Positions 16,496 to 56,659 of a stretch of 64,000 bases of DNA are shown here, in pieces; within the stretch, counting starts at the first letter, position 1, and the number at the start of each line of letters is the position of its first letter. The notes beneath the pieces were generated by a model that saw only the letters and a program-made list of their open reading frames with translations, had not been told where the DNA came from and searched no databases. This stretch comes from Strigops habroptila (taxonomy: Eukaryota > Chordata > Aves > Psittaciformes > Psittacidae). A program made the position numbers and the translations under genes. The stretch covers positions 5,828,001 through 5,892,000 of the forward strand of contig NC_044278.2 of the NCBI RefSeq assembly GCF_004027225.2, written 5' to 3'.

Positions 16496-17705
16496 GATTT
16501 AAGCAAAAGCAAAGCATTGCTATTAATGTGGTTGACTCCAGTTGGAGTACAGGATCCTTAAGAGAACAAAGTCTTGAAAACTCAAGGCATATGCAGTTTG
16601 GCATTGCAGACCTAATCACAAAAACTCTTGCGGTCACATTTGAGAGGTTTAAGACTTTATCACTTCTTGGATTTGATTACCACCTTTGGACATTGTTGCT
16701 TTTAACTCCCAGTCCACCTATGGTGACTAGAGAACTGGTGATTTTAAGCTTCCCTAGAAAGTGGTTTAAGCTATTTTACTGTATTCTCCCACCCCAAGTG
16801 ATGAGTATTCATGTATTCACTGATTCATTCTTTCATTTGTTTATTCAGTTTCAGCCAGGGAGCTGCTACCCTGAAGAAGTCAAAGAGCAGTTTCTTGAGG
16901 TGCTTGAATTACACTGCAACAGTAAGTCTGACTGCTTTCTGTACTATTTACTTCATTTTGTTTAAAGGATACAGCCCATCCAATGTTGAACAGGGAAAGG
17001 TTAAAGGCATTGTCCCACAATGCTGTAAAGAGTGGTGCCCAGTCTTGCCACAGCTCTTTGTGGTTGCATGGCTACGGCTATCTGAAGGAAATTACCCCTG
17101 TGTAAGAGTCCGTCTTTATCTTTCTTGTCGCACTTTACTGTTGGTGACTAGCAGACTTTTGAAATAAAAACTTTCATTTATTAGGAAGACTTAATTGTGG
17201 CAAGCCTAAATTCTTTTGTGTATGTGAACTCTGGTCTGTGGTTTGGATTTTTGTTTACCGTCCTTCCCAGGTGTGCCGTATGAATAGTTTTCTCAGGTTT
17301 TCATCTGCCCTGGAAATTATCTGTGATTCCACTCTGCCCTCCAATACACTCTTTATTCCCTTTCCAGTGCCAGCTGACCAGGCTTTTTCCTTTAGCTGGA
17401 GTCAGGCACGCACACATTTAGTTCAAGCCAGTCTCAACATGGGCTGGCACAGCTCCATGAACCAGATCTGTCAAGCGGAGTAACCCAAAATAACCCACAG
17501 GATCTGTAAAGAGGTGAGGCTGAGAACAGCAATGCAAATGATGTACACAAATATTACCGAGTGTGGAAGCTTGCTCTATGGGAAGGTATCATTTGCTGTG
17601 GTACTGATGGTTTTTTGCACTCAGAGTGGTAATGGAATTGACAGACTTGAAAAACAGATCAATTAATTTTTGGCAAGGAAAAAGAAAAGCCACAAAGACC
17701 CCAAA

Positions 17706-17710
17706 ATAAT
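17706..17710. repeat. Left target-site duplication (ATAAT) of the solo LTR
   Basis: ATAAT sits directly before the TG of the LTR and is repeated directly after its CA at 18316-18320. A perfect 5-bp duplication is the footprint of retroviral integrase. Confidence 0.85.
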
Positions 17711-18315
17711 TGTTGTGGTTTAAGCCCAGCCAGTGACTCACCCTCCCCTTCTTCCCCCTCTCCAGGCAGGATGGGGAGGAGAATTGAAAGAATATCTCAA
17801 CCCCATGGGTTGAGATAAGAACAGTTTAATAATAACTAAAGTAGAATATACTAATAATAATAGTAATAATAATGATAAGAGAAATAATAAAGGGAGAGAA
17901 TATAAAACTAAAAGGGAAAAGGGGAGGGGGGTGGAACATAAACCGAAACAACAAACACAAGTGATGCACAATACAATTGCTCACTACCCATTGATCGATA
18001 CCCAGCCCAACCCAGGCAGTGATCAGTCCCTTCCGGGTGACTCCCCCCAGTCTCTATACTGGGCATGACGTGCTGTGGTATGGAATACCCCTTTGGCTAG
18101 TTTGGGTCAGGTGTCCTGGCTCTGCTTCCTCCCGGCTTCCCTTGCCCCTCCTCGCTGGCACAGCATGAGACTGAAAAGTCCTTGATCAGGGTAAGTGCTA
18201 CTGAGCAACAACTAAAACATTGGTGTGTTATCAGCATTGTTCTCAGACTAAACCCAAAACACAGCACTGCTGCTAGGAAGGAGAAAAAATAACTGTTCAA
18301 GCTGAAACCAGGACA
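17711..18315 (-). mobile_element. Solo LTR of the same ERV family as the 46-56 kb provirus
   Basis: This 605-bp element starts TGTTGTGGTTTAAGCCCAGC and ends CCAGGACA. It matches the provirus LTRs along its length, including the GATACCCAGCCC block, the CTATACTGGGCATGACGTG block, the CTTTGGCTAGTTTGGGTCAG block and the CTGAAAAGTCCTTGATC block. It also carries the AATAAT-rich stretch seen in the provirus LTRs. Flanks are ATAAT on both sides. No internal viral sequence is present, so the provirus was lost by LTR-LTR recombination. Strand is inferred from the polarity of the full provirus. Confidence 0.92.
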
Positions 18316-18320
18316 ATAAT
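18316..18320. repeat. Right target-site duplication (ATAAT) of the solo LTR
   Basis: This is an exact copy of 17706-17710, directly after the last base of the LTR. Confidence 0.85.
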
Positions 18321-19620
18321 GAATACTTCATTCTTTTGTTGTTGCCCCTAACATACCAGTAAAATAGTTACATGTGTGAGTTACAGTGATTAATTAGCTC
18401 TGACCTATCAAAACCAAAAAAAAACAAAACCAACCAAATCTTCATTCTTGGTAAGAGTTGATTAGGCTCAGGGACCTTGCATTGAGCTGTGATTTTGTTT
18501 CTACATGAAATTCAGGGTTTCAAACTGGTTATTGAAGTACTTAGTACTCCTGTGGGAGAATGAAAGGAAAGAGAAATAATTTTAATGCTTTTATTAGCAC
18601 AAAATGTTGCTTATGCACGAATAAGATCTCTGTGTCATTTAGAAAATCACTAAAGGTTTAGGGGTAAACCAGTATGGCTGTAAAGATACAAAATAAGAAG
18701 AGGTGGCTTTCCAGTACTACTTCAGGGTTTCTCCTTCAGCTATTGGTGATACTTGTGCAAAGAAGGGAGCAATTTTTCAGTAATGTATATGCAAACCACT
18801 GTGCCTGCTGTTTTTTAGGCAGAAAAATATGTCTTTGGCTGGTGTGTGTTCACTTTTCAGGCACCTGATCTCAAGGCCCAGAATTTCTTGAAGTTTGTGT
18901 GAAAATAAACAGACTTGAAGACGGTGGTGATGCATGGAGTGTCTTTCTGTGGGAAGTATGAATGTTTTTCCCTCCCAAATGTGTCAATGCTTTTTCTGGC
19001 CATACCTCTGAAAAAGCATTCTCAACCATCCACGCATACATATTTATTTTGGCTGTTTCATCAGTGCTCTGTAGTGAACGGCATCTCCCAGGAGCTGAGT
19101 TCCCATAGTAGGTAGATCCTGTTTACAGTCTTCAAGCTGCTGCTGGCCGCTGTTCCTGTCAGTCTCATCTTCTCACAGTATGGGTGATCTCCAGATATCA
19201 TGACTTGGGGTTTTTTAGTGTGTTTAAAATTATAAACAACAGAGTTTAAAGCATTTAGCTTAAATGGCTTGCAACTAACGTAAACTGCTACTTAAAAATT
19301 ACTAATCTATTGATATTCATATTCCATTCAAGTGAGAAAAATATTCTAATGCATAAAAGCACATATATAACAAAGATAGTGGTATAAGATACTTTTGAAT
19401 ACAGAATTAATAATTATCCTTTACTTTGGGTAAAGTGAGGAGCAGTAAGAACAGTATATTTTTAACTTTGGTGAAGAGAGTTTTGGTATTCCAGGCAGAC
19501 TATCAGTTAGGTTTCCTGAGGCATTTTATGACAATACTTTTATTTGTGCTTTGTTCAGAAAAAAAATCCCACATCATTATGTGCTAAGGAATGTTGCCTG
19601 AATGCAACAAAGTGTGATAA

Positions 19621-46120: not shown

Positions 46121-46125
46121 AGGAG
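46121..46125. repeat. Left target-site duplication (AGGAG) of the composite provirus
   Basis: AGGAG lies directly before the TG of the left LTR and recurs exactly at 56012-56016, directly after the CA of the right LTR. Because both LTR edges are complete, this marks the whole 46126-56011 block as one integration unit. Confidence 0.9.
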
Positions 46126-46689
46126 TGTCGTGGTTTAAGCCCAGCTGGTAACTCAGAACCACGCAGCCACTCGCTCAGTTCCCCCTTCTTCTTCCCCCCG
46201 CTATCGGAGGGATGGAAAGGAGACTGGATAAAATGTAAATTGCATGGGTTAAGAGCAGCCCAGTAACTAAGGTAAAATAAAAAGCCACTACTGCTACCAC
46301 CAATAATAATAATAATAATAAGAGGAATAACAAGGGGAAAGAATACAATTGCTCAGTGCCTGCCGACTGATACCTGACCCGAGCAGCGATCTGGGACTTC
46401 CGGGTAACTCCCCCCAGTTTCTATACTGGGCATGATGTGCTGTGGTATGGAATACACCTTTGGCTAGTTTGGGTCAGGTGTCCCGGCTCTGCTTCCTCCC
46501 AGCTTCCCATGCCCCTCCTCACTGGCAGAGTATGAGACTGAAAAGTCCTTGATCGCAGTAACCATTACTGAGCAACAATGAAAAACATCGGTGTGTTATC
46601 AGCACTGTTCTCAGGCTAAAGTCAAAACTACAGCACTGCACCAGCTACTAAGCAGGAGAAAAATGACTGCTACTGCTGAACCCAGGACA
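46126..46689 (-). mobile_element. 3' LTR of the composite provirus
   Basis: This 564-bp LTR starts TGTCGTGGTTTAAGCCCAGC and ends AACCCAGGACA on the plus strand. It aligns throughout with the LTR at 55442-56011. By eye roughly one base in ten differs, many as C/T or A/G changes, plus small indels including an expanded AATAAT array near 46302. In viral orientation U3 begins at 46689. The divergence implies an old insertion or LTRs from two related parents. Confidence 0.93.
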
Positions 46690-47278
46690 GTATCAACCCC
46701 TTATTCCATACCATTAACGTCGTGCTCAGATCTCACATTTCTCAATATACCATCACATTTGTCTCCTATATATATACACATATATACACATATATATATA
46801 TGCAGACCCACACCAAGAGAGAGATATCATTCCTTAGTCCATGGAGCAATCCCTGTAGAGCTGCTGAATTCATCCAGTCCATGATGTCAGGCTCCATCTC
46901 TTCTAACAGTCTCTCAGGGCAGGAGGGACGGTGTGTAGTGTTGGATTGTCACCTGCTGATGACACCGCCGAACTCGTCTGGTCACTGCTGAGCTGGTCTG
47001 GTTTCATCAAAGTTCATTCTTTGTTGGGGTGATGATGGGAGGGAAGTCAGGGGCAGTCATTGGTGACCTGAGGACAGTTCTGCTGCTGCTGCCAGCTTGT
47101 TCCATGACTTAATTCTCTGCTGATGATCGTGACAGCATATTATCTTCTGTTCAAAACCCACAGTTCTGGAGATGGGCATCTAGCTGGTGGGCTATAAAAG
47201 TGTTGTATAGCAGGCAACAGCATATAATTGAGTTCATTGGCTGTTTTCCCCCAAAATCAAATCCCCTTGAGGTACACA
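46690..47278 (-). mobile_element. Viral 3' region between pol and U3 (no env recognised)
   Basis: In viral sense this lies between the integrase stop and the 3' LTR. It holds a TA/CA-rich tract (about 46766-46801) and, next to U3, a purine-rich GGAATAAGGGG that could be the polypurine tract for plus-strand priming. No envelope-like frame, signal peptide or fusion peptide is visible. Two pieces of this region recur beside the captured host DNA (48764-48836 and 53665-53796). Confidence 0.7.
46766..46801. repeat. TA/CA microsatellite
   Basis: Alternating TATATACACA units give way to a (TA)n run. The same tract, in a different state, occurs at about 53756-53792 in the displaced copy of the viral 3' region and lies at a recombination junction there. 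Confidence 0.85.
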
Positions 47279-48763
47279 TCAGACTTCCCTATCTTCCCGC
47301 ATTACCCACCAAGTACCTCTGGGTCCCTGAGCAAAAGCAATCCCACGACTGGGTTTGCCTTTACCTGAAGCAGCAATAACCCAGACTGCTTTCCCAAGCA
47401 GACTCGTTATGTGCACCACAGGAACTTTATCCCCCTCTACGATAGGTGAAAGTTCTGATTGGGCTGGGCCAGCCCTGTTGGCAGATCCCCTCGTGTTGAA
47501 CGACCAGGTGGCTTTTGGTCAGTGTGTATCCCAGTGTTTGAAAGTCCCACCACCCGTTGCTCTCAGTGTAGTTTTTAACAGCCCATTGTACCGTTCCATT
47601 TTCCCAGAGGCTGGTGCATGACAGGGGATGTGATATACCCACCCAATGCCATGCTCTTTGGCCCAAGTGTCTATAAGCTTGTTCTGGAAATGAGCCCCAT
47701 TGTCTGACTCAGTTCTCTCTGGGGTGCCGTGTCGCCACAAAACTTGTTTCTCAAGGCCCAGGATAGTGTTCCGGGCAGTGGCATGGGACACAGCGTATGT
47801 TTCCAGCCAGCCGGTGGTTGCTTCCACCATGGTAAGCACATGGCGCTTGCCTTGGCGGGTTGGTGGGAGTGTGATATAGTCAATGTGCCAGGCCTCCCCA
47901 TACTTGTACTTCAGCTATCATCCTCCATACCAGAGAGGCTTTAACTGCTTGGCTTGCTTAATTGCAGCACATGTTTCACATTCGTGAATAACCTGGGCAA
48001 TAGTGTCCATTGTGAAGTCCACCCCTCGATCACGAGCCCATCTAGATGTTGCATCTCTGCCTTGATGGCCTGAGGTGTCATGGGCCCACCGGGCTAAAAA
48101 TAATTCACCCTTATGTTGCCAATCTAAGTCCATCTGAGCCACTTCAATCTGAGCAGCTTTATCCACTTCCTGGTTGTTCTGGTGTTCCTCAGTGGCCCGA
48201 CTCTTGGGTACATGAGCATCTCCGTGGCGTACCTTCACCACCAGGTTCTGCACCCGGGCAGTGATCTCTTCCCACAGGGCAGCAGCCCAGATGAGTTTGC
48301 CTCTGCGCTGCCGGTTGCTCTGCTTCCATTGCTGCAACCACCCCCACAGGGCATTTGCCACCATCCATGAGTCAGTACAGAGAGAAAGTGCTGGCCGCTT
48401 TTCTCGTTCAGCAATGTCCAAGGCCAGCTGGATGGCTTTCACCTCTGCAAACTGACTCGATTCACCCTCTCCCTCAGCAGGTTCTGCACCTTGTTGCAGG
48501 GGACTCCATACAGCTGCCTTCCATCTCCGACGCTCTCCCACACCATGGCAGGACCCATCAGTAAACAAGGCATATTGGCTTCTCACTTTCTGGCAGTTCA
48601 TTCTATGGTGGGGCCTCTTCAGCACGCATCACCTCCTCCTGTGGTGACATTCCAAAATCTTTGCCCTCTGGCTAGTCCATAATGACTTCTAGAATTCCTG
48701 GACGACTGGGATTTTCTATTTGAGCTCATTGTGTAATTAGTGTGGCACACTTACTCCATGTTC
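47279..48763 (-). pseudogene. Broken ERV pol: RT end, RNase H, integrase
   Basis: Read on the minus strand from 48763, this begins with the end of the RT connection, then an RNase H domain (48625 onward) with the acidic residues visible in TDGSC, the Glu of the SQFAEVKA segment and TDSW. An HHCC integrase zinc finger (His-His then CETC) follows. Two adjacent in-frame stop codons (47918-47920 and 47915-47917) interrupt it. The same frame then continues into the integrase core with its Asp, Asp (ESDNG) and Glu (GKMERYNG) region. Another in-frame stop lies at 47519-47521, and the C-terminal domain runs to a final stop at 47279. It could not make an active enzyme as it stands. The first 593 bp (48171-48763) duplicate 53797-54388. 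Confidence 0.88.
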
Positions 48764-48836
48764 TATCATTCCTTAGTCCATGGACCAATCCCTATAAAGT
48801 AGCTGAATTCATCCAGCCCATGATGTCAGGCTCCAT
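48764..48836 (-). mobile_element. Displaced piece of viral 3' region downstream of TTLL3
   Basis: About 73 bp match 46825-46896 (blocks ATTCCTTAGTCCATGGA, GCTGAATTCATCCAG and ATGATGTCAGGCTCCAT). In viral sense it directly follows the captured TTLL3 gene (its stop codon is 9 bp away) and is joined at about 48763 to the second RT/RNase H copy. Confidence 0.85.
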
Positions 48837-48845
48837 GTCAGGCAG

Positions 48846-49745
48846 CTAAGAGGTTCTGCCCACCGGCTTTGGCACCACGGGAGGCTTGGGGTCTGTAGGG
48901 GTCTTGCTGACCATACGTGGCTTGGAGACCCCTGGAGGCTTGGGCACCACTGGCGGCCTGGGCGCCACAGGAAGCTTGGTGTCCTTAAGTGGCCTAGAGA
49001 CCACTGGAGTCCTGGGCACCACAGGAGGCTTGGGCACCACAGGAGGCTTGGGCACCACGGGAGCCTTGATGTCCATAAGTGGCTTGGAGACCACAGCAGC
49101 CCTGGGCATCACAAGAGACTTGGTGTCCATAAGTGGCTTGGGCACCACTGGAGGCCTGGGCACCAGAAGAGGCTTGGTGCCCATAAGTGGCTCGCAGACC
49201 ACTGGAGTCCTGGGCACCACAGTAGGCTTGGTGCCCATAAGTGGCTTGGGCACCACTGGAGGCCTGGGCACCACAGGAAGCTTGGTGCCCGTAAGTGGCT
49301 TGGGCACCACTGGAGGCCTGGGCACCACAGTAGGCTTGGTGCCCATAAGTGGCTTGGGCACCACTGGAGGCCTGGGAACCACAAGAGGCTTGGGCAGCAG
49401 AGGACACATTGGGAACAGAGGAGGCTTAGGGAACATAGGAGCCTTGGGCACCACAGGTGACTTGGGCACCACAGCAGGCTTGGGCACAAAAGGTGTCTTG
49501 GGCACCACAGGTGACTTAGGCACCAGAGTAGGCTTGGGCACAAAAGGTATTTTGGGCACCACAGGTGACTTTGGCACCACAGGAGGCTTTGGTACCAAAG
49601 GTGGCTTGGGCACCACAGGGAGGAGAAGAGGCAGGAAGGTGGGGACTTTGGCCCGTGGTTGTTGCTCTTGCAGCTTGGGCTTCATTAGCGAGTAGCCTTC
49701 CACTGCCAGCTCCAGCCCCATGTATGGCGGCATGGTCACCATTGC
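48846..49745 (-). CDS. TTLL3: TTLL3 copy, exon 10: C-terminal Pro-rich repeat tail
   Basis: The acceptor CCCTGCAG|GCA joins in phase to exon 9, giving ...IYKEAMVTMPPYMGLELAVE, which matches the 'IYKQPAVEVPQYVGIRLLVEG' join known in TTLL3. The exon then enters a tail of about 260 residues built from PVVPKP-type hexamers and is closed by TAG at 48846-48848. The frame is open throughout. The extreme repeat tail is unlike mammalian TTLL3 tails, so it is either specific to this lineage or expanded in this copy. Confidence 0.85.
   Translation of the reverse strand, partial: AMVTMPPYMGLELAVEGYSLMKPKLQEQQPRAKVPTFLPLLLPVVPKPPLVPKPPVVPKSPVVPKIPFVPKPTLVPKSPVVPKTPFVPKPAVVPKSPVVPKAPMFPKPPLFPMCPLLPKPLVVPRPPVVPKPLMGTKPTVVPRPPVVPKPLTGTKLPVVPRPPVVPKPLMGTKPTVVPRTPVVCEPLMGTKPLLVPRPPVVPKPLMDTKSLVMPRAAVVSKPLMDIKAPVVPKPPVVPKPPVVPRTPVVSRPLKDTKLPVAPRPPVVPKPPGVSKPRMVSKTPTDPKPPVVPKPVGRTS
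48858..49617 (-). repeat. Coding 18-bp / 54-bp tandem repeat in TTLL3 exon 10
   Basis: The basic 18-bp unit encodes variants of PVVPKP. In the middle part (about 49080-49370) three units form a 54-bp, 18-residue higher-order repeat ending PLMGTK or PLMDTK. Since all periods are multiples of three, long open frames also appear by coincidence in other frames on both strands. Confidence 0.9.
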
Positions 49746-49756
49746 CTGCAGGGAGA

Positions 49757-50390
49757 CATGGAATAACTGGGTTGGAAAGAGCTTTAGATCATCAAGTCCA
49801 ACCCTTACCCAGCACTGCCAAGGCCACCACTACCCCATGCCACTGAGGGCCTCTTCTACAGGGTTTTGAACCCCTCCAGGGACAGTGATTCCACCTCCTC
49901 CCTGGGCAGCCTGTTCCAGTGCTTGACCACCCTTTGGGGAAGAAATTGTTCCTAACATCCAGTCTAAACCTCCCCTGGGGCAGCTTGAGGCTGTTTCCGC
50001 TTGTCCCATCCCTTGTTCCTTGGGAGCAGAGACCAGCCCCCTCCCGGCTCCATCCTTCTGTCAGGCAGTGGGAGAGAGCGAGAAGGTCCCCCCTGAGCCT
50101 TCTCTTCTCCAGACTAAACCCCCCCAGGTCCCTCAGCCGTTCCTCATCACACTTGTGCTCCAGGCCCTGCACCAGCTCCGGTGTCCTTCTCTGGCCCCAC
50201 TCCAGCACCTCAATGTCTCTCTTGTAGTGAGGGGCCCTGAACTGAACACAGGATTTGAGGTGCAGCCTCGCCAGTGCCCAGTACATGGGGACAGTCCCTG
50301 CCCTGGTCCTGCTGCCACGCTGGTGCTGATACAGGCCAGGATGCTGGTGGCTTCTTGGCTGCCTGGGCACGAGCTGCTCACGCTCAAGTG
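49757..50390 (-). mobile_element. CR1 LINE 3' end within the last TTLL3 intron
   Basis: On the minus strand this reads as a 5'-truncated CR1 tail. It contains the conserved block equivalent to ACTGGAACAGGCTGCCCAGG and runs on to the AGTGCTGGGTAAGGGTTGGA stretch before the 3' end near 49757. It lies wholly between exon 9 and exon 10, in the sense orientation of TTLL3. It may have been in the parent gene before capture, which makes it a marker for finding the donor locus. Confidence 0.9.
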
Positions 50391-50423
50391 GGGAGTGGGG
50401 GCTCAGAGCCCCCCCAAACCCAC

Positions 50424-50860
50424 CTCTTTGTAGATGAGCTCAAAGGCACCGGTGGAGCAGCCGGGGTTCTCCCTGTGGTCCAGGACCACGCGCAGCGTGT
50501 CACGCAGGACGGCGGCGCAGAGCCGTCGGGTCACCACCGAGCAGGGCTCCAAGCTGGGACCGGCATTGATCTCCAGCAGCCAGGGCTGGCAATCCTCCCT
50601 GAATATGAAGTCAGCTCCATAGAGCTCGAAGCTGCCCTTGCGGCCCTCCACCAGCTCCTGGGTGCCGCGCAGGGCAGCCACCACCACCTCCTTCATGCCG
50701 GGCACAATCAACTTCTCCCAGGCCTCTGTGTGCCCCGCTCGCTGCAGGTACAGCTGGAACTGCTGGCTGGACCAGATCAGGTTGCGGGGCAGTTTGGGGT
50801 GCCAGCCCCCAGACAGCCTCCAACCGCTTCTGGACGGCGACATTGCAGAGGTGCCGCGAG
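50424..50860 (-). CDS. TTLL3: TTLL3 copy, exon 9 with +1 frameshift
   Basis: 437 bp (ACGCCAG|CTC, AAAGAG|GTGGGT). The first part encodes RHLCNVAVQKRLEAVWG. A run of five C on the plus strand (50806-50810) has one base too many for the frame that follows. After it, in another frame, come WSSQQFQLYL, VPGMKEVVVAAL, ELYGADFIFRED and WLLEINAGPSL. Without correction translation stops at 50611-50613 and loses the catalytic C-terminal part. Confidence 0.88.
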
Positions 50861-50938
50861 CTGGCGTGGGGAGAGCAGGGACGGGTCAGCGGGCTGCCAG
50901 GGTGCCGGGTGTGCGGCGCTAGAGCGAGGGGCACTCAC

Positions 50939-51176
50939 CGGTGCAGGGAGAAGGGCCGGGAGCAGAAGCGCACGTAGCTGTCCCGGTAGAACCAGATGGT
51001 GAGCGGGTTCCAGTCGGTCACCAGGAACCATTGCCGCAGGTCGAACTTGTTGCCCAAGATGAGAAGCGGCCGCTCCACGTACTTCTGCACCACCCATTGT
51101 CCCGGCTGCAGCGAGGGTGCTGTGCATTTCCCCGCCAGCTCCAGCACCTCCTCCAGCCGCGCCGAGCAGGTGATGC
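50939..51176 (-). CDS. TTLL3: TTLL3 copy, exon 8
   Basis: 238 bp (CTCACAG|GCA, ACCG|GTGAGT). It encodes [20 protein letters not shown] and then [20 protein letters not shown] with [11 protein letters not shown]. This is the most conserved block of TTLL3, with the QKY(I/V)ERPLL and KFDLRQW motifs intact. Confidence 0.92.
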
Positions 51177-51260
51177 CTGTGAGGGGGGACACACGGTGCC
51201 GGTGAGACCCCTCCTCACCGAGGAGCCTGTGCCCAAACCCCCTTTTCCCCTTGGCTTCAC

Positions 51261-51409
51261 CTCTACCGCGGGACTGGGCTCCGGGCTTGAGAATCCAGAG
51301 ATTGCGGACGCCCTCCATGCGGAGCTGGGGCAGCTGCGCCTGCAGCTGCTGCAGCAGGGGCCTGCACTTCTCCCGCTGCAGGACGCTGGGTGCCAGCCTG
51401 GCCTGCTCG
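51261..51409 (-). CDS. TTLL3: TTLL3 copy, exon 7
   Basis: 149 bp (CCTGCAG|CGA, AGAG|GTGAAG). It encodes [15 protein letters not shown] and then [17 protein letters not shown]. The Lys and the Gly-rich SRGRG are the nucleotide-binding elements of the tubulin ligase ATP-grasp fold. Confidence 0.9.
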
Positions 51410-51491
51410 CTGCAGGGTTGTGACACGGGGGGCTCAGCACCAGCCCTGCCATGCTGTGTGCCCCCCCCACCCCGTCCCGCCCCGCATGCAC

Positions 51492-51660
51492 TGCACCACG
51501 TGGTAGTACTCCCGCAGCAAGTAGTCCCAGTTGGCATCGGAGATGGGGAGCATCGGGGGGGCACGGTCGATGTCCCTGTGCTCCAGCCTGTCCAGCTGCA
51601 TCCTGCAGATCTGCAGCGTGGCCTCCAGCAGCTCGGGGAGCGATGAGGGTGCTGGACCTG
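51492..51660 (-). CDS. TTLL3: TTLL3 copy, exon 6
   Basis: 169 bp (CCCGCAG|CAG, GTGCA|GTGCAT). It encodes a helical stretch ([20 protein letters not shown]) and ends with [12 protein letters not shown]. Joining to exon 7 restores a VVHE junction as in TTLL3, which supports the non-canonical-looking donor. Confidence 0.85.
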
Positions 51661-51829
51661 CTGCGGGTGGCGTGGGCTGAGGGGCATGGCTGCTGCCGAC
51701 CCGGGGGAAGCGTGGCTTTGGGTGCGTCAGGGTCCCAAGCCACAGCCTCAAGCAGAGGTGCAGCCCACAGCCGTGGCCCTGAGCCTCAGCTCCTCACCAT
51801 CCCCACCAGGCCCATCTCCACACACTCAC

Positions 51830-51928
51830 CTGCCCCCTTGCCAGGTCGCTCCATCACCCCTGGCATGTCCCCAGCCTTCTCCACAGCCAGTTTGAGCAGG
51901 CTGCGAGCCGCCGTCAGGTGGAAATCCT
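51830..51928 (-). CDS. TTLL3: TTLL3 copy, exon 5
   Basis: 99 bp (TTTGCAG|AGG, CAG|GTGAGT). It encodes [20 protein letters not shown], matching the 'EDF.LTAARN.LKLVV' segment known from TTLL3, followed by a variable linker. Confidence 0.88.
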
Positions 51929-52026
51929 CTGCAAAGGATTCGAATCGTCCTTACGCCGTCCTGCCCAGGACACGGGGGGACCTGGGACGTGGCAGAGGGG
52001 GCAGAAGGGCAACAGCCCCAGCTCAC

Positions 52027-52141
52027 CGATGAAGGCTTGGCGCTCGTCCTTAGCCCCCAGCCGGTAGCACCGTGGGAAGAAGGTGCTGGGATCGGCTCGG
52101 TGGAACCCGGGCTGGTTTTGCAGGTTGACGCACAGCCCCGC
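52027..52141 (-). CDS. TTLL3: TTLL3 copy, exon 4
   Basis: 115 bp (ACACAG|GCG, ATCG|GTGAGC). It encodes [20 protein letters not shown] and then [17 protein letters not shown], the signature FFPRCY region of the glycylase subfamily. Confidence 0.9.
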
Positions 52142-52235
52142 CTGTGTGCATGGACAAGGGCGGCAGTCGGTGCTGGACCCACCGCCGCCCCTGTTCGTCC
52201 CCAGCACCGCGTCCCCGGCATCTCCAGGCTCTCAC

Positions 52236-52364
52236 CTTGGTGGTGAAGGCTCCGACGCCGGTGAAGTGGTTCACCACCTGGTGGTCCTGCAGCAGCCAAT
52301 AGTCGACCGCGTCGCAGTGGCTGGTCCAGATGAAGGTCGCCATCTGGTCCCGCACCATGGAGGA
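52236..52364 (-). CDS. TTLL3: TTLL3 copy, exon 3
   Basis: 129 bp, in phase (CCCACAG|TCC, AAG|GTGAGA). It encodes a segment with FIWTSHCDAVDYWLLQDHQ and VNHFTGVGAFTTK, matching the conserved FIWTT...INHY..AGSFTTK stretch of TTLL3/TTLL8. Confidence 0.88.
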
Positions 52365-52475
52365 CTGTGGGAGGGACAGAAGGGGCCTGGAGTGAGCTGT
52401 GGAGTCCCCATCCCACCCTCACCGCCAGGCCCAGGCTGTGCCCTGCCGAGTCCAGCCCTGGCCCTCTCCACTAAC

Positions 52476-52814
52476 CATGATGTCATGGATGCCATCGGGG
52501 TTCTCGTCATACCACTGGTCCTCCTCCTCCTTCTCTTCCTCCTCCTCCTCAGGAGGCTCCGGGATCCCTACTGCAGGCTGAGCCCAGCAGGATGCCGACC
52601 CTGGCTGTGGATGCAGCGTTGCCTGCCACTGCTCATCACCGCTGTCCTCCTCATCTTCCTCATCCTCCTCCTCCAGCAGCTTCTGGGTGTCCTGCTGCTG
52701 CGCCGAGCGGCTGCCCACCCTGACGGTGTTGGAGAACTTCTCCACCCAGCCCCGTGCCCGCAGCAGGTTGCGGATGACGAGGTAGGGGCCCTGCACCGAG
52801 AAGATCTTCTTCTC
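52476..52814 (-). CDS. TTLL3: TTLL3 copy, exon 2
   Basis: 339 bp, in phase at both ends (CCCCAG|GAG, ATG|GTTAGT). It encodes EKKIFSVQGPYLVIRNLL, then RARGWVEKF, then an acidic linker with runs of Glu/Asp, ending DGIHDIM. The same order (basic start, acidic linker, 'GxHxLM') is known in vertebrate TTLL3. Confidence 0.85.
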
Positions 52815-52873
52815 CTGGGGAGGGACGCGAGCACTCAGCCATAAATGCAATAAACACACATCCATGGCATGTT

Positions 52874-52890
52874 GGGGGGGGGGGGGGGGG
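52874..52890 (+). repeat. G17 homopolymer in TTLL3 intron 1
   Basis: Seventeen consecutive G. Such runs are hard to sequence and often carry length errors, which is relevant to trusting nearby single-base indels. Confidence 0.9.
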
Positions 52891-52910
52891 AGGGTGTGAT
52901 CGGGCCCCAC

Positions 52911-52993
52911 CTTGATGGCCTCCTCCACCTGCTGCCTGGCTCTCTTCAGCAGCTCCATGCTGACCGAGCGCTGCTGCTTGGTGCTGGCAGGAG
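52911..52993 (-). CDS. TTLL3: TTLL3 copy, exon 1 (first recognised)
   Basis: The acceptor is a pyrimidine-rich ...TTGGCAG before 52993 and the donor is AAG|GTGGGG after 52911. The exon encodes a Lys/Arg/Gln-rich helix ending VEEAIK, which precedes the KKIF motif in TTLL3 proteins. The best start is the Met at 52956-52958, placed like the known short-form TTLL3 start. Because an acceptor precedes the exon, an upstream exon or read-through from ARPC4 is also possible. Confidence 0.75.
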
Positions 52994-53535
52994 CTGCCAA
53001 GAACAAGCCAGGCTGAGCTGCTGGCCCCGTGTCCCCAGCCCCACGCAGGGGGGAACAGCAGAGCAAGGGGGGAAGGCACCCACCTTTCTGCTCCAAAGTC
53101 TGCCCAGCACAGTACGCACCACCTGAGAGCTCTGTGCCGGAGTCCCGGCTGATCTACCCCCCCAGGGGTGCCTCACAGGGCCCGAAGACCCCACTCGGCC
53201 CCATAACACCACCAGTAACGTCGCCTGCTCTTGCGGTTGTTTGCCAAAGAGAGGTTGACTCCTTCCAGCAATAGCCTGAGGGCGAGGGGGCTGCAGCCCC
53301 CCCTCAGCATGCTCTGGGGATCCCAAACCCAGCACTTCCCCAGCAAAGGGGGCACAGGCACCCCGGGGCGTCCTCCCGCCCGGTCCCCAAGGGGGGCTTG
53401 GGCACAATGGCACTGCTGTCCCATAGGTGGGACTGGGGGGCTCTGGCCGTTAGAACCACACTGGCTTGGAGCCCCCCACCCCGCTCCCAAAATCCCACCA
53501 GGAGGGATCCGCCTCCTCCCGTTCCAGAGCCTCAT
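52994..53535 (-). other. Captured intergenic/intron DNA between ARPC4 and TTLL3
   Basis: About 540 bp of GC-rich sequence lies between the ARPC4 homology and the first recognised TTLL3 exon. No further exon was recognised. In mammals the two genes are adjacent in the same orientation and produce read-through transcripts, so this is probably the compact intergenic interval, which may include TTLL3 5' UTR or promoter. Confidence 0.6.
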
Positions 53536-53658
53536 GTTTTTAAGGAGTTGCTCTGCCATGATGCAGGCCCTGCTGTTGACAGACAGCTTCATCTCGCTGA
53601 TCTCCTTGTCGATCTCCTCCATGGAGTGGATGACAAAGTCCACCAGCTTGTGCTTGTT
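53536..53658 (-). pseudogene. ARPC4: Piece of the last coding exon of ARPC4
   Basis: ARPC4 is the p20 subunit of the Arp2/3 actin-nucleating complex. The minus strand encodes [20 protein letters not shown], then SEMKLSV, then a diverged end finishing LLKNM. This matches the ARPC4 C-terminus almost residue for residue, but with several replacements and a lost stop (the frame runs on past KN). ARPC4 is nearly invariant among vertebrates, so these changes show loss of constraint. The upstream exons are absent: viral U3 bases are fused directly to the exon. ARPC4 lies just upstream of TTLL3 in vertebrates, which fixes the identity of the captured locus. Confidence 0.87.
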
Positions 53659-53664
53659 ACAGCC

Positions 53665-53796
53665 GAACCCAGGACAGTATCCACCCCTTACTCCATACCA
53701 TTCACGTCACGCTCAGATCCCATATTTTAAAATGTTCCATCGCTTTTTGTCTTATACATATATATACACACACACATACGTGCACACACACAAGTT
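53665..53796 (-). mobile_element. Displaced viral 3' region plus first U3 bases, fused to ARPC4
   Basis: 53677-53796 matches the sequence next to the 3' LTR (about 46690-46805), including a purine-rich GGAGTAAGGGG and the TA/CA tract. 53665-53676 is the start of U3 (TGTCCTGGGTTC in viral sense). Loose U3-like similarity runs a few bases into the ARPC4 exon, so the junction may lie at short microhomology. At about 53796 the piece is joined to the interior of RNase H. Confidence 0.85.
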
Positions 53797-55380
53797 GATT
53801 GTTCTGGTGTTCCTCAGTGGCCAGAATCTTGGGTACATGAGCATCTCCGTGGCGTACCTTCACCACCAGGTTCTGCACCCAGGCAGCAATCTCTTGCCGC
53901 AGGGCAGCAGCCCAGATGGGTTTGCCTCTGTGCTGCCGGTTGCTCTGCTTCCATTGCTGCAACCACCCCCACAGGGCATTTGCCACCATCCATGAGTCAG
54001 TAGAGAGATAAAGTACTGGCCATTTTTCTCGTTCAGCAATGTCCAAGGCCAGCTGGATGGCTTTCACCTCTGCAAACTGACTTGATTCACCCTCTCCTTC
54101 AGCAGTTTCTGCACCTTGTCGCAGGGGACTCCATGCAGCTGCCTTCCATCTCCAACGCTCTCCCGCACCATGGCAGGACCCATCAGTAAACAAGGCATAT
54201 TGGCTTCTCACTTTCTGGCAGTTCATTCTATGGTGAGGCCTCTTCAGCACGCATCACCTCCTCCTGTGGTGACGTTCCAAAATCTTTGTCCTCTGGCCAG
54301 TCCATAATGACTTCTAGGATTCCTGGACGACTGGGATTTCCTATTCGAGCTCATTGTGTAATTAGTGCGGCCCACTTACGCCATGTAGTATAGGTTGCAT
54401 GATGTGTAGAGGAGACCCTGCCTTTGAACATCCAGCCCAGCACAGGCAACTGGGGTGCCAGGAGGAGCTGTGCTTCAGTGCCAATCACTTCTGAAGCAGC
54501 TCGAACCCCTTCATAGGCTGCCAGTATCTCTTTTTCAGTGGGAGTGCAGCTGGCCTCGGATCCTCTATATCTCCGGCTCCAAAAGCCGAGGGGTCTACCT
54601 CGAGTCTCCCCTGGAGCTTTCTGCCAGAGGCTCCAGGCAGGATCATTCTCCCTGGCTGCAGTATAGAGCATATTCTTCACACCTGCCCCAGTCCGGACTG
54701 GTCCAAGGGCTACTGCATGAACTATTTCTCATTTAATTTGTTCAAAGGCTTGTTGTTGCTCAGGGCCCCATTTGAAATCATTCTTCTTCCACATCACGTG
54801 ATAGAGAGGGCTTACAGTCAGACTGTAATTTGGGATGTGCATTCTCCAGAACCCCACAACACCTAAGAAAACTTGTGTTTCTTTCTTGTTAGTTGGTGGA
54901 GACATTGCTGTTATCTCATTGATCACATCTGTGGGGACCTGGCGGCGTCCATCTTGCCATTTTATTCCCAAAAATTGAATCTCCTGTGCAGGTCCCTTGA
55001 CCTTAACTCCGTTTTATGGCAAAACCGGCCTTCAGAAGGATTTGGATAATTTTCTTCCCTTTCTCAAAAACAACTTCTGCTCTATTGCCCCACACAATAA
55101 TGTCATCCATGTATTGCAGGTGTTCTGGAGCTTGCCCCTGTTCCAGTGCAGTCTGGATCAATCCATGGCAGATGGTAGGGCTGTGTTTCCACCCCTGGGG
55201 CAGTCGGTTCCAAGTGTACTGGACGCCCCTCCAAGTACAAGTGAACCATGGCCTGCACTCTGCTGCCAGAGGGTTTGAGAAAAATGCATTGGCAATATCA
55301 ATTGTGGCATACCACTTGGCTGCCTTTTTTTTTTTTAGCATTATAGCTGCACAATTTTTGCTGACCCAGTGGCAAGTTTG
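53797..55380 (-). pseudogene. Broken ERV pol: reverse transcriptase and RNase H (5' copy)
   Basis: In viral sense the RT begins abruptly near 55325 with the TIDIANAFF segment (first catalytic Asp), then LPQGW, then YMDD at 55102-55113. The thumb/connection region follows (about 54971-54351, in pieces separated by frame breaks or stops), then RNase H (54250-53797) with TDGSC and TDSW. RNase H is cut off before its end. Gag, protease and the N-terminal RT are missing: the RT starts about 90-110 bp from the PBS. The enzyme cannot be functional as encoded. 53797-54388 is duplicated at 48171-48763. Confidence 0.88.
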
Positions 55381-55415
55381 AATCAGACCAGACTGTTGTT
55401 ATCTCAACCCTTCGA

Positions 55416-55433
55416 GCCCCACGCTGGGCACCA
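55416..55433 (-). promoter_or_regulatory. Primer-binding site, tRNA-Lys type
   Basis: In viral sense, eight bases after the 5' LTR, TGGTGCCCAGCGTGGGGC is complementary to the 3' end of a tRNA. It differs by two transitions from the tRNA-Lys (CUU) complement TGGCGCCCAACGTGGGGC. The match continues into the T-arm (TTCGA on the plus strand). It would prime minus-strand synthesis. Confidence 0.75.
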
Positions 55434-55441
55434 AAAAGAAC

Positions 55442-56011
55442 TGTCGTGGTTTAAGCCCAGCCAGTAACTCAGAACCACGCAGCCGCTTGCTCACTCCCCC
55501 CGTCTTCCTCCCCCTGCTCCCAGAGGGATGGGGAGGAGAATCAAAACGATGTAAACCCCACGGGTTGAGACAGGAGCAGCCCAGTCACTAAGGTATAATA
55601 CAAAACCACTACTGCTACCACCAATAACAATAATGATAAGGGGAATAACAAGGGGAGAGAATATAATTGCTCAGCACCCACTGACCGATACCCAGCCCGA
55701 CCCAAGCCGCGGTCTGGGCCTTCCGGGTTACTGCCCCCAGTCTCTATACTGGGTATGACGTGCTGTGGTACGGAATACCCCTTTGGCTAGTTTGGGTCAG
55801 CTGTCCTGGCTCTGCTTCCTCCTGCTTCCCGTGCCCCTCCTCACTGGCACAGCATGAGGCTGAAAAGTCCTTGATCACAGTAAACATTACTGAGCAACAA
55901 TGAAAAACATCAGTGTGTTATCAGCACTGTTCTCAGGTTAAAGTCAAAACCACAGCACTGCCCCAGCTACTACTAAGGAGAAAAATGACTGCTACTGCTG
56001 AACCCAGGACA
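55442..56011 (-). mobile_element. 5' LTR of the composite provirus
   Basis: This 570-bp LTR starts TGTCGTGGTTTAAGCCCAGC and ends AACCCAGGACA on the plus strand. In viral (minus) sense U3 starts at 56011 and U5 ends at 55442, next to the PBS. Being upstream of pol and the TTLL3 copy, it is the natural candidate promoter for the whole unit. TATA and poly(A) signals are not clear by eye. Confidence 0.93.
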
Positions 56012-56016
56012 AGGAG
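56012..56016. repeat. Right target-site duplication (AGGAG)
   Basis: Exact repeat of 46121-46125, directly after the final CA of the right LTR. Confidence 0.9.
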
Positions 56017-56166: not shown

Positions 56167-56659
56167 TCATTTGCTGTCTTCCAGTGCAAAGTGGTTTTTG
56201 TTCTGTAAAAGGACCATAGGTGCCCAACTGTTCTGTTTTATTTTATCAAGCTGGAGTGCTTGATGTACCATATACATTTCCTGCCACATATTAAAAGCTG
56301 CTCTGAGCAACTGCTGTTCGCTGTCACTGTAATAACTAAGCCAACCAATATTAAACCTGGGATGTACAGGTGTAAAATCAATTGCTCTCCTTAAAGAAAT
56401 GTAGCAATATCTTCCAGTTTCATTTCTTATAGCAAAAAGGTCTGGTAGGTCAGTCCTATCCTCTTTCAGATTCACGACTGTGTATTGAAAATATTACTAG
56501 GCACTTGTTGTTCCCACCTACAGGCATAGAACTAAACATTTTTCTGGGAGCTTCTTGTTTGTGACGGTTATCCCAAAGAAATTTTTCACTGTAAGAATTG
56601 TGTTTTCTTCCTCCAAAGCATCTGGCACCATCTAATGATGGATTCAGGTCATCATCCAT
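56167..56659 (-). pseudogene. Unidentified coding relic, two overlapping frames
   Basis: A 67-codon frame starts at ATG 56657-56659 (MDDDLNPSLDG...), and a 102-codon frame ends at 56167 (...NHFALEDSK). They overlap between 56456 and 56475. Their combined amino-acid texture is protein-like: mixed hydrophobic and charged residues with a Trp/Tyr/Phe-rich stretch (FNIGWLSYYSDSEQQ) and a helical segment (AFNMWQEMYMVHQALQLDK). One frame change inside the overlap would join them. An acceptor-like TTTTCAATACACAG lies there, but no plausible intron fits. I do not recognise the family. It could be a decayed single-copy gene, a retropseudogene without visible tail, or a chance pair. Confidence 0.4.

Follow-up and report, generated by a model that had tools for sequence, protein, structure and literature searches.

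The window, a stretch of 64,000 nucleotides (G000:C2:5828001-5892000) from the genome of the kakapo, Strigops habroptila, contains an endogenous retrovirus (ERV) with a host gene inside it. The provirus lies on the minus strand at 46126-56011 with a long terminal repeat (LTR) at each end, and carries part of an ARPC4 exon and the whole of TTLL3, a tubulin glycylase gene, with its introns. A single assembly was examined (1.149 Gb, 89 contigs), and the other copies found in it (C2a, C2c, C4a, C4b, C7, C12, C13, and C26) are named after their contigs. The first-pass annotation of this DNA had described two LTRs, an AGGAG duplication, a primer-binding-site (PBS)-like sequence, and pol on both sides of about 4.8 kb of host DNA, all on the minus strand. 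All of these were found again.

The 3' LTR (46126-46689) and the 5' LTR (55442-56011) have TG...CA ends and differ at 68 of 560 aligned sites; the identity of the 3' LTR to the right LTR is 85.7%. The target-site duplication AGGAG is found at 46121-46125 and 56012-56016. A PBS-like 23-mer (55411-55433), which we take to resemble the end of tRNA-Lys, and a putative polypurine tract immediately upstream of the 3' LTR (46690-46707) are also present on the minus strand, as are the pol remnants. Reverse transcriptase (RT, PF00078), RNase H (PF00075), and the integrase core (PF00665) are all above the Pfam cut-offs, and PF17921 is below. RT is to the right of the host block, the integrase core is to the left, and RNase H is on both sides. 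The RT side of pol (54387-55398) is broken, with the RT domain at 55003-55398 and sub-threshold RT-RNase H matches at 54351-54728. The integrase part (47519-48170) has its core domain in an open frame at 47519-47914; in its own frame, 47519-48052 contains 3 stops in 178 codons, the terminal stop included. The RNase H part is doubled, with an upstream copy at 53796-54386 and a downstream copy with PF00075 at 48171-48761, which differ at 32 of 591 sites (94.6% identity). Its relatives are present in many birds. The origin of this doubling from a circle or a homologous insertion was considered and dropped, as in C2a the integrase-side viral sequence reaches the junction. In the window, the upstream RNase H copy meets a microsatellite at 53793-53795, where C2a keeps integrase-side sequence, and the window join is taken as a secondary deletion. 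There is no space for gag between the PBS (55411) and the RT frame (55398) of the window copy, and no gag or env family is among the Pfam matches of its 11 scanned viral-part frames. Losses of gag and env are frequent in old ERVs, and their absence from the matches therefore does not exclude membership in ERVs.

The host block occupies 48840-53655 on the minus strand, and its native counterpart lies within C11:35974291-35977453. The virus-host junctions, which the first-pass annotation had placed near 48,837 and 53,660, do exist, but their positions are 48839/48840 and 53655/53656. At the 5' side, the block begins with an ARPC4 exon from residue 128 to 167 (53536-53655). It differs from the native sequence at 10 of 120 bases, and the native exon starts at about residue 110. 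The exon in the block is joined to the first 21 nucleotides of the LTR (53656-53676), which are preceded by another putative polypurine tract (53677-53694). TTLL3 follows with 10 exons and GT-AG introns at 48846-52993, and encodes the TTL domain (PF03133). Exons 1-5 are at 52993-52911, 52814-52476, 52364-52236, 52141-52027, and 51928-51830, and exons 6-10 are at 51657-51492, 51409-51261, 51176-50939, 50860-50424, and 49745-48846. Exon 9 is frameshifted near 50829-50814. TAG at 48846 was considered as the native stop codon of TTLL3 and dropped, as it is absent from C2a, C13, and the native remnant, and the frame continues beyond it in several copies. At the 3' end, the block is joined to a 76-nt viral piece (48764-48839), and the same join is seen in C2a. 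A LINE-type processed retrocopy would be intronless and have poly(A); the window block contains introns and an interspersed repeat. Nor does the block correspond to spliced mRNA, as introns are retained and C7 is the only one of the nine copies seen spliced.

The search of the genome with 50430-53655 as a query resulted in 24 matches at ten places, and all ten candidates were scored. They are nine element-borne host blocks on six contigs and the native locus on C11. The identities to the window are 94% for C2a (C2:6.335M), 89% for C13, 85% for C4a, C4b, and C2c (C2:26.84M), 84% for C12, and 82% for C26; C7 is also matched. The diagnostic junction of the family is LTR bases 1-21 joined to AAGCACAAG within the ARPC4 exon. 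A 31-mer across it is found at 8 places on five contigs, including the window (3 exact, the others with 1-3 mismatches), and the reversed control gives 0. This agrees with the proposal of the first-pass annotation that the unit is a gene-carrying ERV with a multi-exon host gene. The join falls at the same base at these places, including an odd TGTAAC, except that C4a and C4b have G for the last C. In the stretch examined for the ninth block, C26, the ARPC4 exon is not present. At the junction point, the native locus continues into the upstream part of the ARPC4 exon.

C2a (C2:6333618-6342946) is a full copy 0.45 Mb from the window, with the window-type layout and the same host-to-viral 3' join. 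Its target duplication is ATAGT, so that a further full unit at a different target site, which the first-pass annotation had suggested looking for, exists. C4a and C4b (C4:78028799-78045904) are tandem duplicates that lie about 11.9 kb from each other and differ very little, and an inverted LTR is near each. A protein matching C4a is present in databases as TTLL3-like (P0001). Adjoining the C12 copy, at C12:14574567-14579254, there are tandem pol-LTR units of the same ERV family without a host block, and the integrase pieces at C12 belong to these units. In the frame of the window, the integrase of C2a has 1 stop in 176 codons (downstream copy), that of C13 has 4 in 170, that of C2c has 3 in 129, and that of C4a has 1 in 178 over two pieces.

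The native locus is on another contig. Native ARPC4 exons were found at C11:35977332-35978238 on the minus strand, with 98% identity over residues 110-167 to a human query. Adjoining them is a TTLL3 remnant (C11:35975335-35976094) with parts of exons 1-3 and GTG at the start codon, and the sequence continues directly with 42 nt that match the end of exon 10 of the window. Exons 4-9 are missing, and the sequence there contains no N. The search with exon 8 revealed TTLL3 at 8 places, all of which are element copies (two of the nine matches are C2c). Four more matches at other loci show 39-43% identity and are presumably other TTLL genes. The native TTLL3 is broken in the kakapo, and the only unbroken copies found are element-borne.

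C7 bears on how the family moved. It begins at LTR base 1 beside an unrelated flank, and LTR base 21 is followed by a spliced host series: the ARPC4 exon, two further stretches, TTLL3 exons 1-4, and the start of exon 5, without the introns around exons 1-5. It ends with ten bases matching the LTR end, again beside an unrelated flank. The flanks are ACAGT and ACACT, which match at four of five positions by eye. In C13, GTGAGG, GTGAGG, and GTGGGT come directly after the ARPC4 exon and the two further stretches, respectively; thus, the extra joins of C7 fall at donor sites. Because C7 is spliced and bounded by LTR termini, it must have passed through RNA.

The 3' join varies among copies. In C13, C2c, and C26, host GGTCAC is joined to LTR base 1, and the host side matches the native sequence at C11:35974291, where native DNA continues. 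C4a/C4b and C12 share another host 3' end, and the window and C2a have a third. In the unrooted nucleotide tree, the element copies form two clades with the native sequence between them, and C13 and C2c/C26 belong to different clades. The GGTCAC join is thus found in members of both clades and looks ancestral. In C13, the host-bearing LTR is followed by a PBS-like leader sequence. Judged from these joins, the host block in the oldest layout looks to have been enclosed in the unique 3' region (U3), with LTR base 21 on one side and LTR base 1 on the other.

These observations are best explained if an avian ERV captured an unspliced block from the ARPC4 exon to TTLL3 once and then spread, at least partly via RNA, to nine places. 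The probability of this explanation is roughly 0.88. The oldest layout would be a pol remnant, a polypurine-like run, LTR bases 1-21, the host block, and the LTR from base 1. The most likely route is a template switch, in which reverse transcriptase moved from the viral template at LTR base 1 to host pre-mRNA and, after copying it, returned at LTR base 21. Alternatively, an upstream provirus, since deleted, could have given rise to read-through RNA that reached a second LTR on the downstream side of TTLL3, where this LTR had inserted. Splicing of an LTR donor to the ARPC4 acceptor was also considered as the origin of the 5' join and dropped, as comparison with native ARPC4 places the join about 18 codons inside the exon and not at the acceptor. 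With the host gene in U3 of the 3' LTR, reverse transcription would copy it into both LTRs. The window unit and C2a, whose host block is internal between ordinary LTRs, would represent a later sub-type. The family as a whole predates the insertion in the window.

The reading frame of TTLL3 is in different states among copies. Under the gene model of the window, the frames of C13 and C4a are predicted to be open (804 and 853 residues), with exon 8 nine bases longer there. In the SRGRG loop, the Arg of C4a and C12 corresponds to Cys in C13, at a position we assume to be important. C4b has one stop. Exon 9 of C12 is frameshifted, that of the window and C2a has a common one-base insertion, and C2c, C26, and C7 are decayed. 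The ratio of nonsynonymous to synonymous substitution rates (dN/dS) was calculated by the Nei-Gojobori method (NG86) for 21 pairs of seven copies, leaving out the near-duplicate C4b, codons with stops or gaps, and the frameshifted start of exon 9. It is 0.30-0.34 for the pairs among C13, C4a, and C12, 0.36-0.48 for these against the window or C2a, 0.60 for the window and C2a, and 0.38-0.84 for pairs with C26 or C2c. A codon model for five copies and 595 codons (C26, C2c, and C4b out) gave an omega of 0.36, and omega of 1 is worse by 51.7 log units. Tips (0.36) and inner branches (0.37) show no difference. When the tips are split, omega is 0.57 for the window and C2a, 0.33 for C13, 0.29 for C4a, and 0.33 for C12.

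Neutral evolution of the exons was simulated with rates measured in introns for five pairs, 400 runs each. The simulation was CpG-aware because CpG decay lowers neutral dN/dS. For C13-C4a, C13-C12, and C4a-C12, the expected ratio is 0.67-0.69 with 8.1-10.4 stops; the compared codons of these three copies contain zero stops, and neither the observed ratio nor zero stops was reached in any run. For the window and C13, 0.67 and 8.3 stops are expected against the observed 0.45 and zero, and 1% of runs are as low in ratio and none in stops. The ratio between the window and C2a (0.60) is inside the simulated range of 0.46-1.16, and zero stops occur in 3% of runs. Indel events are 9/1046, 13/1488, and 7/1050 in introns for C13-C4a, C13-C12, and C4a-C12, and 1/1763, 3/1763, and 2/1763 in exons. 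Measured against the neutral expectation, the ratios, stops, and indels indicate that the older lineages preserved the TTLL3 frame, a constraint that may have benefited either the element or the host.

Several points weigh against a single capture followed by retroviral spread. The LTR pairs diverge by 12.1% in the window and 13.2% in C2a, about as much as LTRs between copies, whereas the window and C2a differ by 4.6% in host introns and about 5% in pol, so the LTR pairs look older. In U3 alone (about 255 bases), the divergence is 7.5% for the window pair and 14.5% for the C2a pair. Two simple integrations do not explain this mismatch, and faster change of LTRs or conversion of the core is needed. 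Faster LTR change may explain a part, and exchange of the core between these loci 0.45 Mb apart would explain the rest. The 3' ends vary, and the GGTCAC join is seen in three of nine copies. Target duplications are testable in three of nine copies, and that of C7 is imperfect at one position. None of the copies shows a provirus whose two LTRs both contain the host block, and passage through such a state would have to be assumed. The open frames are predictions that depend on the gene model of the window. If the neutral rate is near 2e-9 per site per year, the separation is very roughly 11 million years (My) for the window and C2a and 30 My for the older copies.

Sequences from other birds were compared with TTLL3 of C4a. 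Among the best 120 of 1420 matches, identities are 68-88% for parrots and do not exceed 67% for other birds. Motifs of the chimeric LTR-ARPC4 N-terminus were not found in these best 120 matches. In a protein tree of 30 rows, parrot and kakapo sequences are together on one side (100/100). Nestor clusters with C4a (98/96), Eolophus clusters with the window and C2a (97/95), and a separate clade consists of six psittacoid rows. A grouping of all kakapo element copies and Nestor without Eolophus and psittacoids was rejected by the approximately unbiased test (p-AU 0.012), in which the group was defined after viewing the tree and includes long decayed rows. The sequence relationships hint at an origin of the family before the kakapo lineage. 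With a native Eolophus gene, the tree pattern would need conversion or a second capture.

Among other readings, the one that survives best, though improbable, is that the block spread by segmental duplication or ectopic recombination of DNA and not by reverse transcription. C4a/C4b are indeed a recent tandem duplication, the cores of the window and C2a are younger than their LTRs as if exchanged between loci, and several copies are without one end; nevertheless, the outer LTR edges in the window and C2a are bordered by perfect 5-bp target duplications, and the spliced copy C7 is bounded by LTR termini. Independent captures of the ARPC4-TTLL3 locus are slightly less probable still. The identical 5' join with TGTAAC at 8 places and the 3' join common to both clades speak for one event, although the native sequence between the clades, the different 3' ends, and Eolophus TTLL3 among the kakapo element copies would fit several. 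Chimeric joins in the assembly are very improbable: one assembly was examined, but the same junction is on five contigs, and intron divergence among the copies is about 5-34% (highest in comparisons with C26, which aligns poorly), so that they are not one sequence misplaced. There is practically no chance that native ARPC4-TTLL3 sits here with two ERVs inserted around it, an alternative named in the first-pass annotation: viral pieces with partly overlapping content do flank the block on both sides, but native ARPC4 is on C11, the block begins inside an ARPC4 exon, its GC content is 0.635 against 0.373 and 0.377 in the flanks (0.498 in viral parts), the outer LTRs share one 5-bp duplication, and the junction recurs at 7 other places.

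The single capture and retroviral spread can be extended to a larger scenario, which is possible but rather doubtful. In it, a parrot retrovirus would have taken over TTLL3 by bringing it into its LTR, carried it with introns in both LTRs, and kept it under selection for tens of My. The native gene would then have been lost, and C4a and/or C13 would now supply the sole glycylase TTLL3 from a retrovirus-borne copy.

Some other features are found in the window. The non-coding 3' viral stretch at 46708-46900 (minus strand) includes a TA/CA microsatellite, and parts of it are repeated at 53655-53792 and 48764-48839. An 18/54-bp tandem repeat in the last TTLL3 exon (48865-49616, minus strand) codes for a P-V-V-P-K-type repeat, whose length is apparently different in the frames of C13 and C4a. 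The interspersed repeat in the last TTLL3 intron (49757-49895, minus strand) has many genomic matches at 84-90% and is presumably CR1. Another LTR of the same family, next to which nothing else of the unit is matched, is at 17690-18330, and a 34-bp fragment of an LTR end is at 2749-2782. Just beyond the right LTR, a 108-aa open frame on the minus strand (56167-56493) shows no Pfam match.

No description of an ERV-borne TTLL3 was found in the open-licence PMC literature, judged by titles and abstract starts. The usual examples of host-gene capture are spliced oncogenes carried by short-lived viruses. Rous sarcoma virus and other acute transforming retroviruses are recent viruses with essentially spliced oncogene sequence. 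They resemble the kakapo family in that the host gene comes to lie between viral sequences after chimeric RNA formation and recombination, with viral repeats flanking the insert. In contrast, the kakapo family is an old germline family carrying a tubulin glycylase gene. Here, a germline element carries a full intron-bearing gene, which was multiplied, stayed in frame along some lineages, and has lasted longer than the native gene. If the explanation is correct, retroviral transduction is a route for moving and replacing ordinary vertebrate genes, and it raises the question of whether the ciliary tubulin glycylase of parrots is expressed from proviral loci. In double-copy retroviral vectors, a transgene placed in U3 ends up in both LTRs after reverse transcription. 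These vectors are engineered, whereas the kakapo case is natural and its both-LTR state is inferred. Plant LTR elements also carry and multiply genes inside, some under purifying selection; the available portions of their descriptions do not mention U3 placement or loss of the native gene, nor do they use the word intron.

The closest parallels are in crocodilians, where CrocERV29 has a captured KIT-ligand and CrocERV31 has nectin3, according to the available portion of PMC4299795, which also names Rous sarcoma virus and a walleye virus. As in the kakapo, these are ERV lineages with a vertebrate host gene in several copies, and the host frame of KIT-ligand in CrocERV29 is under purifying selection while the viral frames are broken (PMC4299795, same portion). 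Their captured sequence is described there as mRNA, either between pol and env (KIT-ligand) or replacing env (nectin3). As far as that portion of the source allows a comparison, the kakapo family differs in being unspliced with introns, in its apparent place in U3 in the oldest layout, and in the broken native gene. Thus, gene-carrying ERVs are known, and what is new here is an unspliced whole gene, its likely position in U3, and the loss of the native gene.

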